Shown in pieces: positions 4,066-11,680 of a stretch of DNA of 34,574 nt. The stretch's first letter is position 1; the number at the start of each line of letters is the position of its first letter. Below the pieces are notes generated by a model. It was not told the DNA's origin. It did not search any database and saw only the letters and a list, made by a program, of their open reading frames with translations. The stretch is from positions 1-34,574 of the forward strand of contig CAKMKJ010000008.1 of NCBI GenBank assembly GCA_927443345.1, written 5' to 3'. The stretch comes from an uncultured Anaerolineaceae bacterium (GTDB taxonomy: Bacteria > Chloroflexota > Anaerolineae > Anaerolineales > Anaerolineaceae). Position numbers and translations under genes: made by a program.

Positions 4066-4767
4066 TTAGTCTCCCAATTCTATGTGGGTCGGCACAATGC
4101 GAATTTCTGTCATATCAATTTGAATTATGTTAAATGTGCGAATACTAAAAGCACCTTCAACCATAATTGTTTTTCCAATCCAACTGCTTTTATCTTCACT
4201 ACCGAGAATGTCAGTAAGAACGCGCTTATTAATTTCAGACGCCACTTTGCCATATTCAGTTTGTTCTTTAAAATCACCAAAACTAATAAAACCACCCGCA
4301 TCTCGAACTGAAGTTTCATCACTTGGGATACGCGTTCCAATGTACATGAGAACTTTAATTGGTCCTGTGTAATCATCGACCTGAATTTCGATGGTGCCAG
4401 TACTTGATTCGGTGTTCACAGCGGTAACTTTTCCGGTGGTCTTGACCATGTAAACATGCGATTCACCAACAGTGATCAGGCCAAATTCATTTGCGATTGG
4501 AGCCAGGGTTTCTTTTTGAACAATTCCGCTTGCATCTGGTGTTATTTTCACAAGTACATCGGCGAGATTTACTGATTTTTCATCATAAGCCGGTAACAGT
4601 GTTGACATCCAGATTTCGTCGACATACTTCGCTGGATCAAAGGCTTCATTTTGGACTGCTTGTTGAGCACTCTCAATTGTGACCACGGTGAAACCGAAGC
4701 GCACCATGAAACCCAAAACGATGATGACAATTACAGGAAAGATGAATTTGGAAAGTTTTTGTTTCAT
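4066..4767 (-). CDS. DUF2291 family membrane-anchored periplasmic protein
   Basis: A 233-residue protein of the DUF2291 family, which is known mainly from neighbourhoods of ribose-type ABC importers; its function is not established. One N-terminal membrane helix (residues about 8-29) precedes the main domain, and no lipobox cysteine is present, so it is probably anchored by an uncleaved helix. Visible family features are the segment YVDEIWMSTLLPAYDEKSV, an OB-like beta-rich middle (GTIEIQVDDYTGPIKVLMYIG) and a C-terminal GKTIMVEGAFS strand pair. It lies between the kinase (four-base gap) and the ATPase (five-base gap), so it is part of the operon and probably assists the transporter outside the membrane. 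Confidence 0.82.
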   Translation of the reverse strand: MKQKLSKFIFPVIVIIVLGFMVRFGFTVVTIESAQQAVQNEAFDPAKYVDEIWMSTLLPAYDEKSVNLADVLVKITPDASGIVQKETLAPIANEFGLITVGESHVYMVKTTGKVTAVNTESSTGTIEIQVDDYTGPIKVLMYIGTRIPSDETSVRDAGGFISFGDFKEQTEYGKVASEINKRVLTDILGSEDKSSWIGKTIMVEGAFSIRTFNIIQIDMTEIRIVPTHIELGD

Positions 4768-8237: not shown

Positions 8238-9194
8238 ATGGCTCGTATCGATGAACTTCGCATGATTGCTCGAGTTGCCCGTTTATATTACGAAATGGAC
8301 AAAAGGCAATCAGAAATAGCTGAACAACTTGGCTTATCACAGACTACAGTATCGCGCCTACTTAGCCGTTCGAAAGAAGAAGGTATCATCCGCATATCGA
8401 TCAATATGCCAAAGGGTGTATATACTGAACTGGAAGAAGCCCTGGTCATGAAATTCAATTTGCGAGACGCGATTGTTGTCGATAGCCTGGATAATGATGA
8501 AAATTTGATACAACGAGATTTGGGGGCAGCCGCGGCTTACTATCTTGAATCTGCGATCCGCCCCAATGAAATCATCGGAATATCCTCCTGGAGTGCAACA
8601 CTTTTAGCTCTGGTTGATGCGCTCCATCCACTACCGCGCAAAGCAGGGGTTAAAGTTGTTCAAATACTGGGAGGGGTTGGTAATCCATCAGTTGAAGCAC
8701 ACGCCACTCGATTAACATCCCGGTTGGGGCAACTTGTTAATGGTGAAGTTGTTTTTTTACCTGTCCCCGGAATTTTAGCCTCAGAAGAAGCCCGCAACAT
8801 TCTTTTAGGCGACGATGTTACCAAAAACGCTTTGCAGTTGTTTGATAGCGTCACCACAGCATTAGTTGGGATTGGCGCATTGGAACCTTCTCCTCTGCTG
8901 GCAGAAAGCGGTAATATTTTTTCGGCACATGATATGGAAATGCTACACCAAGGCAAAGCGGTTGGAGATGTACTGCTTCACTTTTTTGACATAAATGGAA
9001 ATCTGGTCGACACCGGTATGGATAAACGGGTAATCTCGATGGGGTTGGCTCAATTAACCAAAGTAAACCGCGCGATCGGTGTGGCAGGCGGGTCAAGGAA
9101 ATACTCAGGAATTTTAGGAGCCCTGCGTGGTCATTGGGTAAATATTTTAATAACAGACAGGTTTACAGCAGCCCGCCTTGAAAAGGAAGACTAA
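8238..9194 (+). CDS. SorC-family sugar-binding transcriptional regulator
   Basis: A 318-residue regulator with an N-terminal helix-turn-helix (KRQSEIAEQLGLSQTTVSRLLSR, about residues 22-45) and a C-terminal sugar-phosphate-binding domain of the SorC/DeoR-C type. The latter is recognised from IGISSWSATLLALVDAL, VVQILGGVGNPSVEAHATRL and the GVAGGSRKYSGILGALRG ending. Members of this family respond to a phosphorylated sugar made by the pathway they control. The gene is divergent from the catabolic operon and shares its control region. AAGGGG precedes ATG 8238 by eight bases. The chemoreceptor-like gene follows 98 bases downstream and may be cotranscribed. Confidence 0.92.
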   Translation: MARIDELRMIARVARLYYEMDKRQSEIAEQLGLSQTTVSRLLSRSKEEGIIRISINMPKGVYTELEEALVMKFNLRDAIVVDSLDNDENLIQRDLGAAAAYYLESAIRPNEIIGISSWSATLLALVDALHPLPRKAGVKVVQILGGVGNPSVEAHATRLTSRLGQLVNGEVVFLPVPGILASEEARNILLGDDVTKNALQLFDSVTTALVGIGALEPSPLLAESGNIFSAHDMEMLHQGKAVGDVLLHFFDINGNLVDTGMDKRVISMGLAQLTKVNRAIGVAGGSRKYSGILGALRGHWVNILITDRFTAARLEKED

Positions 9195-9292: not shown

Positions 9293-11680
9293 ATGCATAT
9301 CATTGTAGGATTTCTCGCACAGGCTGTTCTAACCTTGGCATTATTTTTCACCACTTACAGCATTTATAATAAACCATTCCTTAGCATTCTTTTAACAGCC
9401 CCCTTTTCGATATTTTTTGCAGTTATGATGGGAAGCTATTTTTCAAAAACCTTACGCAAAAAACAAAAGGACGTGATTGATGAATCACTATCATCAATCG
9501 CGATTGCGCAAGATTCTGAATTGTTATCTGCTGCAAACGCCAATATTTCTCAGTTAGCCGAAAAAGTATCCACGATTGCCAATATGCTGGGACATGCTTC
9601 AGGGTACATGGATACGCTAACGCATCAAACTGAAGTAAATACGAAGGATATCACCAAAGCAATTGACCAGGTGGTAAGCGGAACCAGCCAGGAAAATGAA
9701 TCCATTCAATTAGTAGCGCACCAATTAGAAATGATGGCAACGGCTACTGAAGGCATAGCCATAGGCGCACAAGATCAAGCAAAATCTGTGGGAAACGCTA
9801 CTGAAATTTCACATACCGTAAATAAAGCTATTGAAGAAATCGCTGTAAAAGCCTCCAACGCGGCCAAAGCATCTGCGCAGGCTGCTGAGGCCGCCAATGA
9901 AGGCGGTAAAACAATTAATGCCACCGTAAAGGCCATTAACAATATTCGCGAAAAAGTTGGGCAGTCAGCAGAAAAAGTAAGAGAAATGGGCACACGCTCT
10001 GAAGAGATCAGCATCATTGTTGAAAAAATAAAAGACATCGCTTCTCAAACCAATCTATTGGCATTGAATGCAGCCATTGAGGCTGCACGTGCGGGAGAAA
10101 TGGGCCGCGGGTTTGCAGTGGTTGCCAGTGAAGTCAGAAAACTGGCAGAAAACTCCGTCATTGCCACAAAAGATGTAAATAACCTTGTTTTAGCCATCCA
10201 AAAGAGCGCGCATGAAGCTGTCACAACCATGGATATGGGTGTAGATGAAGTTCAGAATGGTGTTGAACTGGCAGAGCAATCTGGTAAAGCTCTAGAAACC
10301 ATCATCTCAACTTCAGATACCGTTCATCAGGAATTAAAGGATGTTGTCAGTCTGACCAATCAACAGATTACCTTGAGCAGAGAACTTGGCAATGCCATGG
10401 AATCCGTTTCTGCTGTAGTAGAAGAAAATTCTGCTTCGTCAGAAGAAATGTCGGCTGAAGCAGATAACATTGCCAAAGAAATAGAAAATATTGCAGAGAT
10501 CAGCGCCAAAAATAGTGTAACGGCCATCGGTGTATCGAAATTAACTACCGAAATTTGCACCCTGGTAGCTGACTCAACTGCCTCTGCACAAACCCTGGCA
10601 GAGATGGCCTCTTCATTACAAAACCTTGTTTCAGCATATGACAACAGTTTAAACGAGATTGTTATTCCAACTAAAACGTACACTTCTCATCTAAAGCCTA
10701 CCGTTGGAATAATTATTCCTAAAAAAATTGCCTTCTGGGAAACAGCCATTAAGTTTGCTCAAAAAGGAGCAGATGAATTAGGGGCAAAGCTGATCGTGTG
10801 TGATTCAGAAGAGAATCCAGTGATAATGGAAAATCATATAACCAACCTGGTAAACCAGAAAGTTGATGGTATTCTGTGGGTTCCGTATTTTGGCCTGGGT
10901 CGAAAAGGATTGACCCTGGCAAAAAACGCTGGAATTCCTGTTTTACTGATTGATTCTTATGAGGGAGGTCTGCAACCGCAATCGGAAGAGTTTCCAAACT
11001 ATCTGGCTTTTGTTGGCCCGGCTGATGAGACAGGCGCATATGAAATGGGGAATTATCTGTTGAATCATTTATCCCCTTCAAAGGAGGGTAAGAAATTTAT
11101 AGCCTCTCTAGACGGTACTGAAGGCGCACCAGGGGCCATTATTCGCCATAAAGGATTAATTCGGGCAATGAAAGAACACTCTGAAGCGGTATTAATTTCT
11201 TCAAAAACTGCCAACTTTGATTTTGAAACAGCAAAGATATGTATGCAAGAAATGTTGAATGAATCGCCACAAATCCAGGGGGTTTGGGCAGCAGGTGATG
11301 CAATGACGCAAGGTGGAATCGAAGGTGCTAAATTGGCAGGACGCCATCCGGGTAAAGATATCTTTTTTGTGGGCATGGATCTTGATTCTGAAAGCCTTAA
11401 AGCCTTACGAAACGGAGAACAGTTATTTGATATAGGCGGACATTGGCTTCAATTTGGTTTCGGCTTGAGTATCCTTTATGATAGCCTGAACGGGTATCCA
11501 ATGCCAAAAGGCCGTTCAATTGTAAAACTGCCGTTATTACCTGTGACGCGTGAAAAGGTAGACCGGTTTGAAAAGGATTTTCCTAACGGCATTCCGCTGT
11601 ATGATTTCATACAAAAATCCAGAGCATACAATCCAAATGCGCCAGTTTCATTTTTTGAGATGAAATATTCAACAGAATAG
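9293..11680 (+). CDS. Methyl-accepting chemotaxis-type receptor with C-terminal sugar-binding domain
   Basis: A 795-residue fusion. Two membrane helices at residues about 2-24 and 28-50 are joined by a loop of a few residues (NKPF), so there is no outside sensing domain. The basic SKTLRKKQK after helix 2 places the rest in the cytoplasm. A long coiled-coil signalling domain follows, with the receptor hairpin tip at residues 248-269 (DIASQTNLLALNAAIEAARA) and ending near 455. No clear HAMP domain is seen. Residues about 468-770 form a Peripla_BP_4-like fold: VGIIIPKKIAFW, DGILWVP, GIPVLLIDSYEGG, GVWAAGDAMTQGGIEGAK and FFVGMDLD. No signal peptide or further membrane segment separates the two parts. 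Inference: it senses a sugar inside the cell and signals through CheA/CheW encoded elsewhere. GGAGGA precedes the start. Confidence 0.88.
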   Translation: MHIIVGFLAQAVLTLALFFTTYSIYNKPFLSILLTAPFSIFFAVMMGSYFSKTLRKKQKDVIDESLSSIAIAQDSELLSAANANISQLAEKVSTIANMLGHASGYMDTLTHQTEVNTKDITKAIDQVVSGTSQENESIQLVAHQLEMMATATEGIAIGAQDQAKSVGNATEISHTVNKAIEEIAVKASNAAKASAQAAEAANEGGKTINATVKAINNIREKVGQSAEKVREMGTRSEEISIIVEKIKDIASQTNLLALNAAIEAARAGEMGRGFAVVASEVRKLAENSVIATKDVNNLVLAIQKSAHEAVTTMDMGVDEVQNGVELAEQSGKALETIISTSDTVHQELKDVVSLTNQQITLSRELGNAMESVSAVVEENSASSEEMSAEADNIAKEIENIAEISAKNSVTAIGVSKLTTEICTLVADSTASAQTLAEMASSLQNLVSAYDNSLNEIVIPTKTYTSHLKPTVGIIIPKKIAFWETAIKFAQKGADELGAKLIVCDSEENPVIMENHITNLVNQKVDGILWVPYFGLGRKGLTLAKNAGIPVLLIDSYEGGLQPQSEEFPNYLAFVGPADETGAYEMGNYLLNHLSPSKEGKKFIASLDGTEGAPGAIIRHKGLIRAMKEHSEAVLISSKTANFDFETAKICMQEMLNESPQIQGVWAAGDAMTQGGIEGAKLAGRHPGKDIFFVGMDLDSESLKALRNGEQLFDIGGHWLQFGFGLSILYDSLNGYPMPKGRSIVKLPLLPVTREKVDRFEKDFPNGIPLYDFIQKSRAYNPNAPVSFFEMKYSTE
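10706..10719. promoter_or_regulatory. Internal copy of the operator-like palindrome
   Basis: GGAATAATTATTCC is a perfect 14-bp palindrome inside the receptor gene, at the start of the ligand-binding domain (codons for GIIIP). Thirteen bases are identical to the O1 site at 8118-8130. It may be a real auxiliary site or a chance result of the codons for a conserved strand. Confidence 0.25.

Follow-up and report, generated by a model that had tools for sequence, protein, structure and literature searches.

Can a chemoreceptor carry its ligand-binding domain behind its signalling domain, on the inner side of the membrane? The question is raised by one gene in a window of 34,574 nucleotides (contig CAKMKJ010000008.1, positions 1 to 34,574) from an uncultured Anaerolineaceae bacterium of the Chloroflexota, which encodes a methyl-accepting chemotaxis protein (MCP) joined at its C-terminal end to a domain of the solute-binding protein (SBP) type known from ATP-binding cassette (ABC) transporters. 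The fusion, its intact receptor tip, its kinship with SBPs and the genes of a chemotaxis pathway can be read from the sequences, and we consider it likely that the product is a membrane-anchored chemoreceptor that senses a cytoplasmic, sugar-like metabolite through its C-terminal SBP domain. Positions given below are those of the window, and residue numbers, unless stated otherwise, are those of the fusion protein of 795 amino acids (aa). The gene and its parts are the following.

9293..11680, + strand: MCP-SBP fusion gene, 795 aa (open frame; ortholog colinear)
9296..9370, + strand: membrane helix 1, residues 2-26 (hydropathy, AlphaFold2 helix)
9374..9439, + strand: membrane helix 2, residues 28-49 (hydropathy, AlphaFold2 helix)
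9464..10639, + strand: MCP coiled-coil hairpin, residues 58-449 (AlphaFold2 helices 58-266 and 268-449)
9866..10417, + strand: MCPsignal (PF00015), residues 192-375 (Pfam, E 2.4e-41, cut-off passed)
10067-10096, + strand: receptor tip NAAIEAARAG, residues 259-268, intact (sequence)
10412..10456, + strand: two methylation-site-like motifs, residues 374-381 and 381-388 (pattern match only)
10640..10693, + strand: variable linker, residues 450-467 (low-confidence region in the AlphaFold2 model)
10694..11677, + strand: SBP-type (type I periplasmic-binding) domain, residues 468-795 (Pfam, AlphaFold2, Foldseek, tree)

The frame runs uninterrupted from the ATG at 9293 to the stop at 11680. Hydropathy analysis of its product yields two strong segments, at residues 1-19 (2.13) and 29-47 (2.05), separated by a very short loop, and no third membrane segment, the next best value (1.22, residues 408-426) falling within the coiled coil. 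The second helix is followed by the basic stretch SKTLRKKQK, which is expected on the cytoplasmic side. A full-length AlphaFold2 model, of which the outline alone was used (pLDDT 58.5, pTM 0.28), places helices at residues 2-26, 28-49, 58-266 and 268-449 and an alpha/beta domain from residue 470, and the cytoplasmic domain of a T. maritima receptor (2ch7) is among the fold matches of the hairpin. No match to HAMP (PF00672) was found in the fusion by the Pfam scan. A third methylation-site-like match, again by pattern only, lies at residue 130. Among 32 distinct MCP frames of the loci compared, the distance from the start of the tip to the C-terminus is 193-239 residues in 28, 314 and 323 in two (one of them a CZB receptor of the same genome, L003, and the other L052) and 537 residues only in the fusion and its ortholog (L021). 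By this measure, the fusion is a receptor with a hairpin of ordinary length and a domain added behind it.

The added domain is complete to the C-terminal signature FEMKYS, common to free SBPs. Modelled alone it reaches a pLDDT of 77.2 and a pTM of 0.75, and Foldseek matches this model to ABC sugar-binding proteins with TM-scores, by target length, of 0.85 (2ioy, a ribose-type SBP), 0.83 (2vk2), 0.87 (5dte) and 0.78 (3h75). In Pfam, Peripla_BP_1 (PF00532) exceeds its cut-off over residues 469-690 (E 3e-11). The family named by an earlier, sequence-only reading of this DNA, Peripla_BP_4 (PF13407), is not matched in the fusion at E 0.001 but is matched in the ortholog (E 2.5e-29).

That ortholog (L021:8579-10987, 802 aa) lies in the Chloroflexi metagenome-assembled genome (MAG) WY2.bin104; it is colinear with the fusion throughout at 62% identity, and the join of MCP and SBP is real because a second bacterium carries the same gene. 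Identity varies along the protein, from 13/55 (24%) in the membrane part and 75/135 (56%) in the N-side coiled coil to 140/185 (76%) in MCPsignal, 48/71 (68%) in the C-side coiled coil, 5/22 (23%) in the linker (residues 447-468) and 207/327 (63%) in the SBP domain. The nonsynonymous distance (dN) is estimated at 0.259 over residues 56-446 and at 0.258 over the SBP domain, and selection therefore keeps the receptor part and the SBP domain equally; the synonymous distance (dS) is saturated, and dN/dS was left aside. The genome is a draft in 94 contigs, which would leave room for an assembly artefact or a fused pseudogene, but the junction is internal to a contig and the frame intact in both genomes, and third codon positions hold most of the substitutions in MCPsignal and in the SBP domain. 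With the same architecture in a MAG at this distance a misjoin is ruled out, and we grant this explanation next to no probability.

On which side of the membrane, then, does the SBP domain lie? It is predicted to be in the cytoplasm. Hydropathy detects no membrane-like segment between hairpin and SBP domain, or within the SBP domain, in either the fusion or its ortholog, and a hidden helix at residues 440-470, which had been put forward as a possible objection, is not seen by this method. The SBP domain has no signal peptide, and the linker contains no signal-like stretch. The nearest free relatives of the domain (L015, L022 and L023) do begin, on our reading, with N-terminal signal-like segments, as would be fitting if the domain reached the outside through an unseen membrane crossing or as a separately translated, exported product, but in view of these absences we regard an outside location as very improbable. 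The order of parts first proposed from the letters of the window (two short-looped helices, an MCP hairpin with intact tip and a complete type I SBP fold), together with the reality of the fusion, is borne out by these data, and the proposed cytoplasmic placement is supported by prediction.

Where the domain came from was addressed with a tree of 21 rows, rooted at the midpoint. The two fused domains are sisters (100/99) and group with the free SBPs L015, L022 and L023 (97/90), while three regulators of the same genome, which we read from their sequences as LacI-type, form a separate group (100/99). LacI/GalR regulators use the same fold as an intracellular sugar sensor. Unlike the fusion, they have DNA-binding output and their own group in the tree, and no helix-turn-helix family is matched in the fusion by Pfam; a LacI origin of its C-terminal domain was considered and is not favoured by the tree.

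The same relatives bear on the ligand. The SBP domain is 46-47% identical to L022 (Paraburkholderia) and L023. The former adjoins a short-chain dehydrogenase, by our reading, and Dak1/Dak2 kinase proteins; the latter adjoins what we read as an aldehyde dehydrogenase and a PdxA-like protein, together with a PF07005/PF17042 kinase-type protein. A relative on a Mesorhizobium plasmid (46.5%) adjoins genes annotated aldA, pdxA and 'four-carbon acid sugar kinase', and a free SBP in another genome of the order (G253) adjoins fucose-isomerase-type, Dak1, Dak2 and RpiB-type proteins; Shinella also holds a free relative, without annotation. The first four of these neighbourhoods point to an ancestral ligand among the C4 sugars, polyols or acids, and for the fused copies we put forward a ligand of this class tentatively, at somewhat less than even chances. 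Judged from its sequence, the domain would bind a sugar. In the printed alignment rows, a subset of the 21 in the tree, both fused copies retain F481, D554, R618 and H717 of the pocket and have an aromatic residue at position 642 (F in the fusion, Y in the ortholog). D-apiose, which the combination of split transketolase and FGGY kinase had brought up as a candidate, found no support in a literature search and was dropped; the literature on SBPs for threitol or erythritol, also searched, yielded nothing that bears on the fusion.

The pathway that such a receptor would serve is present. The genome holds 12 MCPsignal matches, and the CheW profile identifies one CheA-type frame and five free CheW frames, answering the call of the sequence-only reading to look for cheA and cheW. 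Contig C48 carries a cluster of CheA, CheC, CheD, a CheY-type receiver, CheB, CheR, CheX and CheW, the CheA having Hpt, P2, dimer, ATPase and CheW domains, and two flagellin-type matches lie on the same contig. With MCPsignal and an intact tip, in a genome that encodes CheA, CheW and adaptation enzymes, the fusion is a chemoreceptor that would control CheA activity. Its tip closely resembles those of the other receptors of the genome, and it should therefore join the same arrays. The signs of motility in this organism are genes, which is consistent with a cytoplasmic ligand being sensed for an output other than swimming, be it gene expression, cyclic di-GMP or pili, through the same CheA; the single CheA-type frame and its flagellin-type companions argue against such an output, which we judge quite improbable. 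The CZB receptor of this genome mentioned above (L003:8594-10987, contig C24) has its CZB domain at the C-terminus (E 1.4e-10) and stands beside cheW genes.

Ligand binding, ligand class, coupling and output are what we infer from these data, in the following form. Two short-looped helices would anchor a standard CheA/CheW-type hairpin at the membrane. The SBP domain, probably captured from an ABC-transporter gene minus its signal peptide, would be tethered to the C-terminus of the hairpin through a linker of ~18 residues. Because an MCP hairpin starts and ends at the membrane-proximal base of its bundle, the domain would hang beside that base, where HAMP domains normally act. By closing like a Venus flytrap on a ligand in the cytoplasm, which may be a short sugar, a polyol, a sugar acid or the phosphate of one, it would alter the packing or dynamics of the bundle base, a change that CheA would read at the tip; CheR/B/C/D would adapt, and flagellar movement would be biased, so that the cell would show taxis on a substrate or metabolite according to its pool inside the cell. 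Coupling of a C-terminal domain to the MCP tip is supported for TlpD by reconstituted signalling, as reported in PMC6715182, and crystal structures of TlpD link its C-terminal CZB site to the kinase interface (PMC12871147); for an SBP-type sensor in this position, nothing on such coupling was found in the literature searched.

The fusion appears to have few carriers. A scan of a genome collection holding one genome per species (84,980 species), which reaches close relatives only, returned three loci, the ortholog and the free SBPs L022 and L023 of Burkholderiales. In sets drawn from successive ranks, where up to 5 (class), 4 (order), 6 (family) or 2 (phylum) candidates were scored per genome, so that distant cases can be missed, 6 of 396 genomes of the class match the SBP part at E 1e-20, with a frame longer than 700 aa in the own genome only; linker and SBP domain are matched at E 1e-25 in two of 400 genomes of the order, the own genome and G253, where the match is the free SBP. 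A full-length match was found in the own genome alone among 350 genomes of the phylum, and in G759, the genome of the ortholog, alone among the 146 of its family. The genomes of fusion and ortholog probably belong to one family, because a member of the latter's family set (G799) shares contig coordinates with G253.

Several observations weigh against a metabolite-sensing role of the SBP domain or its derivation from transporter proteins. The gene is rare: none of 11 other genomes of the same genus matches linker and SBP domain at E 1e-25, and the carriers known from these searches are two genomes. The full-length AlphaFold2 model is too weak for contacts between SBP domain and bundle. In the tree, the split between LacI-type proteins and SBPs is a long-branch, midpoint-rooted join that the tree program flags as unsure, with long branches meeting at LacI_C43 versus the other rows and at the own ABC SBP of the neighbouring operon, and the grouping with L015, L022 and L023 is more certain than this deep split. 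In the pocket, the fusion departs from the ortholog and the free SBPs shown at G668, where these carry N, and the ortholog departs from the fusion and the same free SBPs at D696 (fusion numbering), where it carries A; these positions presumably correspond to N190 and D215 of RbsB. The fused copies may have come to bind another ligand, possibly a phosphorylated form, or may bind more weakly.

That each fused copy has lost one pocket residue kept by the free SBPs shown would also suit a different reading, in which the SBP domain is a structural or docking tail, for instance for polar placement or contact with a metabolic enzyme, and input arrives through the two helices, e.g. from the membrane or energy state. 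Membrane part (24%) and linker (23%) diverge fast, and the C-terminus can serve placement, as is reported for TlpD in PMC13001251. Yet by dN the SBP domain is under as much constraint as the receptor part (0.258 vs 0.259), most of the compared pocket positions are kept, and a docking tail seems to us unlikely; sensing of a cytoplasmic metabolite by the SBP domain is the reading that we prefer.

How new is such an arrangement? The fusion has a folded, sensor-type domain after the hairpin, predicted to be cytoplasmic, and so falls among receptors with a C-terminal ligand domain, a poorly characterised subfamily for which PMC7390727 gives at least 17 domain types in Pfam. Some archaeal cytoplasmic receptors have C-terminal ligand domains too (PMC9680633), and a crystal structure exists of Helicobacter TlpD, whose CZB domain is C-terminal (PMC12871147). 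The earlier statement that no characterised example of this order is known was therefore too strong. An SBP C-terminal to MCPsignal was not noticed in the open full-text literature listed, the 17 types of PMC7390727 not having been compared by name. The C-terminal-ligand kind of receptor is known; an SBP fold in this place, on a membrane-anchored receptor without a HAMP match, was not found in the literature so searched.

Comparison with better known systems delimits the case. Like the TlpD/CZB receptors of Helicobacter pylori, the fusion has its sensor after the signalling hairpin and, by prediction, in the cytoplasm; unlike it, TlpD is soluble, its hairpin is about half as long as that of Tsr, and the last helix of that hairpin makes up part of its small, helical zinc domain (PMC12871147). 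The fusion is membrane-anchored, its sensor is a 328-residue SBP on a linker, and Pfam finds no CZB domain (PF13682) in it. Its domain belongs to the type I SBP family by Pfam, tree and Foldseek, and shares fold, full length and the FEMKYS signature with the SBPs of sugar ABC transporters (RbsB, YtfQ, L022); in contrast to these it has no signal peptide and no known transporter partner, is fused behind a receptor and is predicted to be cytoplasmic, and the neighbouring transporter has an SBP of its own. In the indirect sugar chemotaxis of E. coli, RbsB or MglB docks on Trg, the SBP being free and periplasmic. There a ribose-type SBP informs a chemoreceptor, as it would in the fusion; the SBP of the fusion is covalently attached and predicted to be cytoplasmic.

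Explanations of how cells link their metabolism to swimming mostly invoke redox and phosphotransferase system inputs. A covalent, cytoplasmic, sugar-type sensor on a receptor would, if the proposal is true, make 'taxis on what has been taken up' testable with one protein. The fusion would also exemplify how a secreted part of a transporter turns into a receptor domain inside the cell, and, with a linker and a sensor at the C-terminus, it would allow a test of driving the bundle base from the C-terminal helix.

The fusion is not the only receptor that points inward in this way. Another MCP of the same genome is split over two contigs, C87:1-969(-) and C60:1-1785(+) (L064, L009), with a 141-base overlap, and reads, in order, two membrane segments, Peripla_BP_4 segments 91-235 (C87) and 198-253 (C60), segment 8-94 (E 3.5e-7, below the family cut-off) and MCPsignal. 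A full-length relative, BCY19493.1 on plasmid AP024711.1 of Leptolinea sp. HRD-7 (L081:3245-5767, 840 aa, annotated 'hypothetical protein'), is 53% identical to the C60 piece and 37% identical to the C87 piece. Among 147 genomes of the family, 14 match this receptor at E 1e-15: nine with uncut frames (844-867 aa) that span the permuted region, the own genome as the tenth, and four with partial frames of <400 aa. The kind is thus found in 10/147 family genomes, with profile order ~94-254 then 8-94. In the nine uncut receptors (one per genome) the two top hydrophobic windows lie within residues 1-75, the next best reaching 1.43.

The order of the profile segments in these receptors indicates a circular permutation. 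In native order, the first part of the profile alone scores weakly (-0.2 to 9.1 bits). When the SBP pieces are put in natural order, a single contiguous match results and the score rises in 9/9 (e.g. 63.6 vs 51.9 bits), the match spanning nearly the whole profile in 4/9 and starting at about position 51 in 5/9. With the moved piece shuffled (30 shuffles per protein), the rejoined score was never reached in 9/9 (e.g. best 51.2 vs 63.6), the smallest margin being 4.5 bits, in L082 and L083 alike. By sequence, the SBP is circularly permuted and set in line, after the anchor and before the hairpin; the chain enters and leaves it at the hinge region.

These receptors, too, are predicted to face the cytoplasm with their SBP. 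They (L081-L090) resemble the fusion in their two short-looped membrane helices, inward-facing SBP (by prediction) and MCP output, and differ from it in that the SBP precedes the signalling domain and is permuted. Taken together, permuted receptors and fusion make intracellular sensing by SBPs in the family more likely. We see an even chance that in this Chloroflexota family (Anaerolineaceae) transporter-type SBPs became cytoplasmic chemoreceptor sensors at least twice, once appended whole, as in the fusion, and once inserted in permuted form. Cells would then steer by how much of an imported sugar, or of its phosphate, is present inside them, and metabolism-dependent taxis would have a direct molecular form.

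Does the neighbourhood of the fusion gene identify its ligand? The genes that precede it are the following.

1-1278, - strand, in the operon: SBP gene of the adjacent ABC transporter, truncated at the contig end
1408..8117, - strand: divergent sugar operon with split transketolase, FGGY kinase, DUF2291, ABC ATPase and permease of sugar type
4066-4767, - strand: DUF2291 protein (Pfam: predicted periplasmic lipoprotein), between FGGY kinase and ABC ATPase
8238..9194, + strand: SorC/DeoR-type regulator, directly upstream of the fusion gene with a 98 bp gap (Pfam)

The FGGY kinase is close to glycerol kinase, and the SBP gene of this sugar-type transporter is separate from the fusion. The sequence-only reading had taken the adjacency of SorC regulator and sugar operon, which is indeed present, as an argument for a sugar sensor; as an argument it is weak, for the association with the receptor is not conserved. 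In G253 (L080) the same gene set recurs in altered order, with identities of 60 and 54% for the transketolase subunits, 56% for the FGGY kinase, 56% for the ABC ATPase, 33% for DUF2291 and 53% for SorC, and a GTPase that we read as Der stands at the receptor's place. In G759 the receptor follows another catabolic run, of PfkB kinase, 2-keto-3-deoxy-6-phosphogluconate-type aldolase and zinc alcohol dehydrogenase, and no SorC match was found in that genome at E 1e-30. With operon and SorC lacking the receptor in the one and the receptor lacking SorC in the other, reading the ligand off the operon was rejected, and the earlier interpretation is, overall, partly supported. The recurrence of DUF2291 in the gene set suggests that its role in the sugar operon is conserved.

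Downstream of the ortholog, L021:12656-13120 gives a weak PAS match (E 0.0043) and L021:13123-13812, a 230-aa protein, a fragmentary MCP match (E 0.005), both below cut-off and possibly remnants of a degraded or split receptor; a full-length MCP-like frame follows at L021:14714-16702. In the window, no Rfam family other than tRNA reaches threshold between 7000 and 13000. At the contig end, a 234-base direct repeat (67-300 and 970-1203, 93% identical, 903 bases start to start) lies within the ABC SBP gene at 1-1278, which starts repeating itself before the contig stops; it may reflect a genuine tandem SBP, an arrangement of domains also present in L018 (617 aa), or an effect of the assembly edge. 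In this Chloroflexota genome, 13592-14503 on the - strand encodes a sortase-family protein (PF04203, E 9.5e-32).

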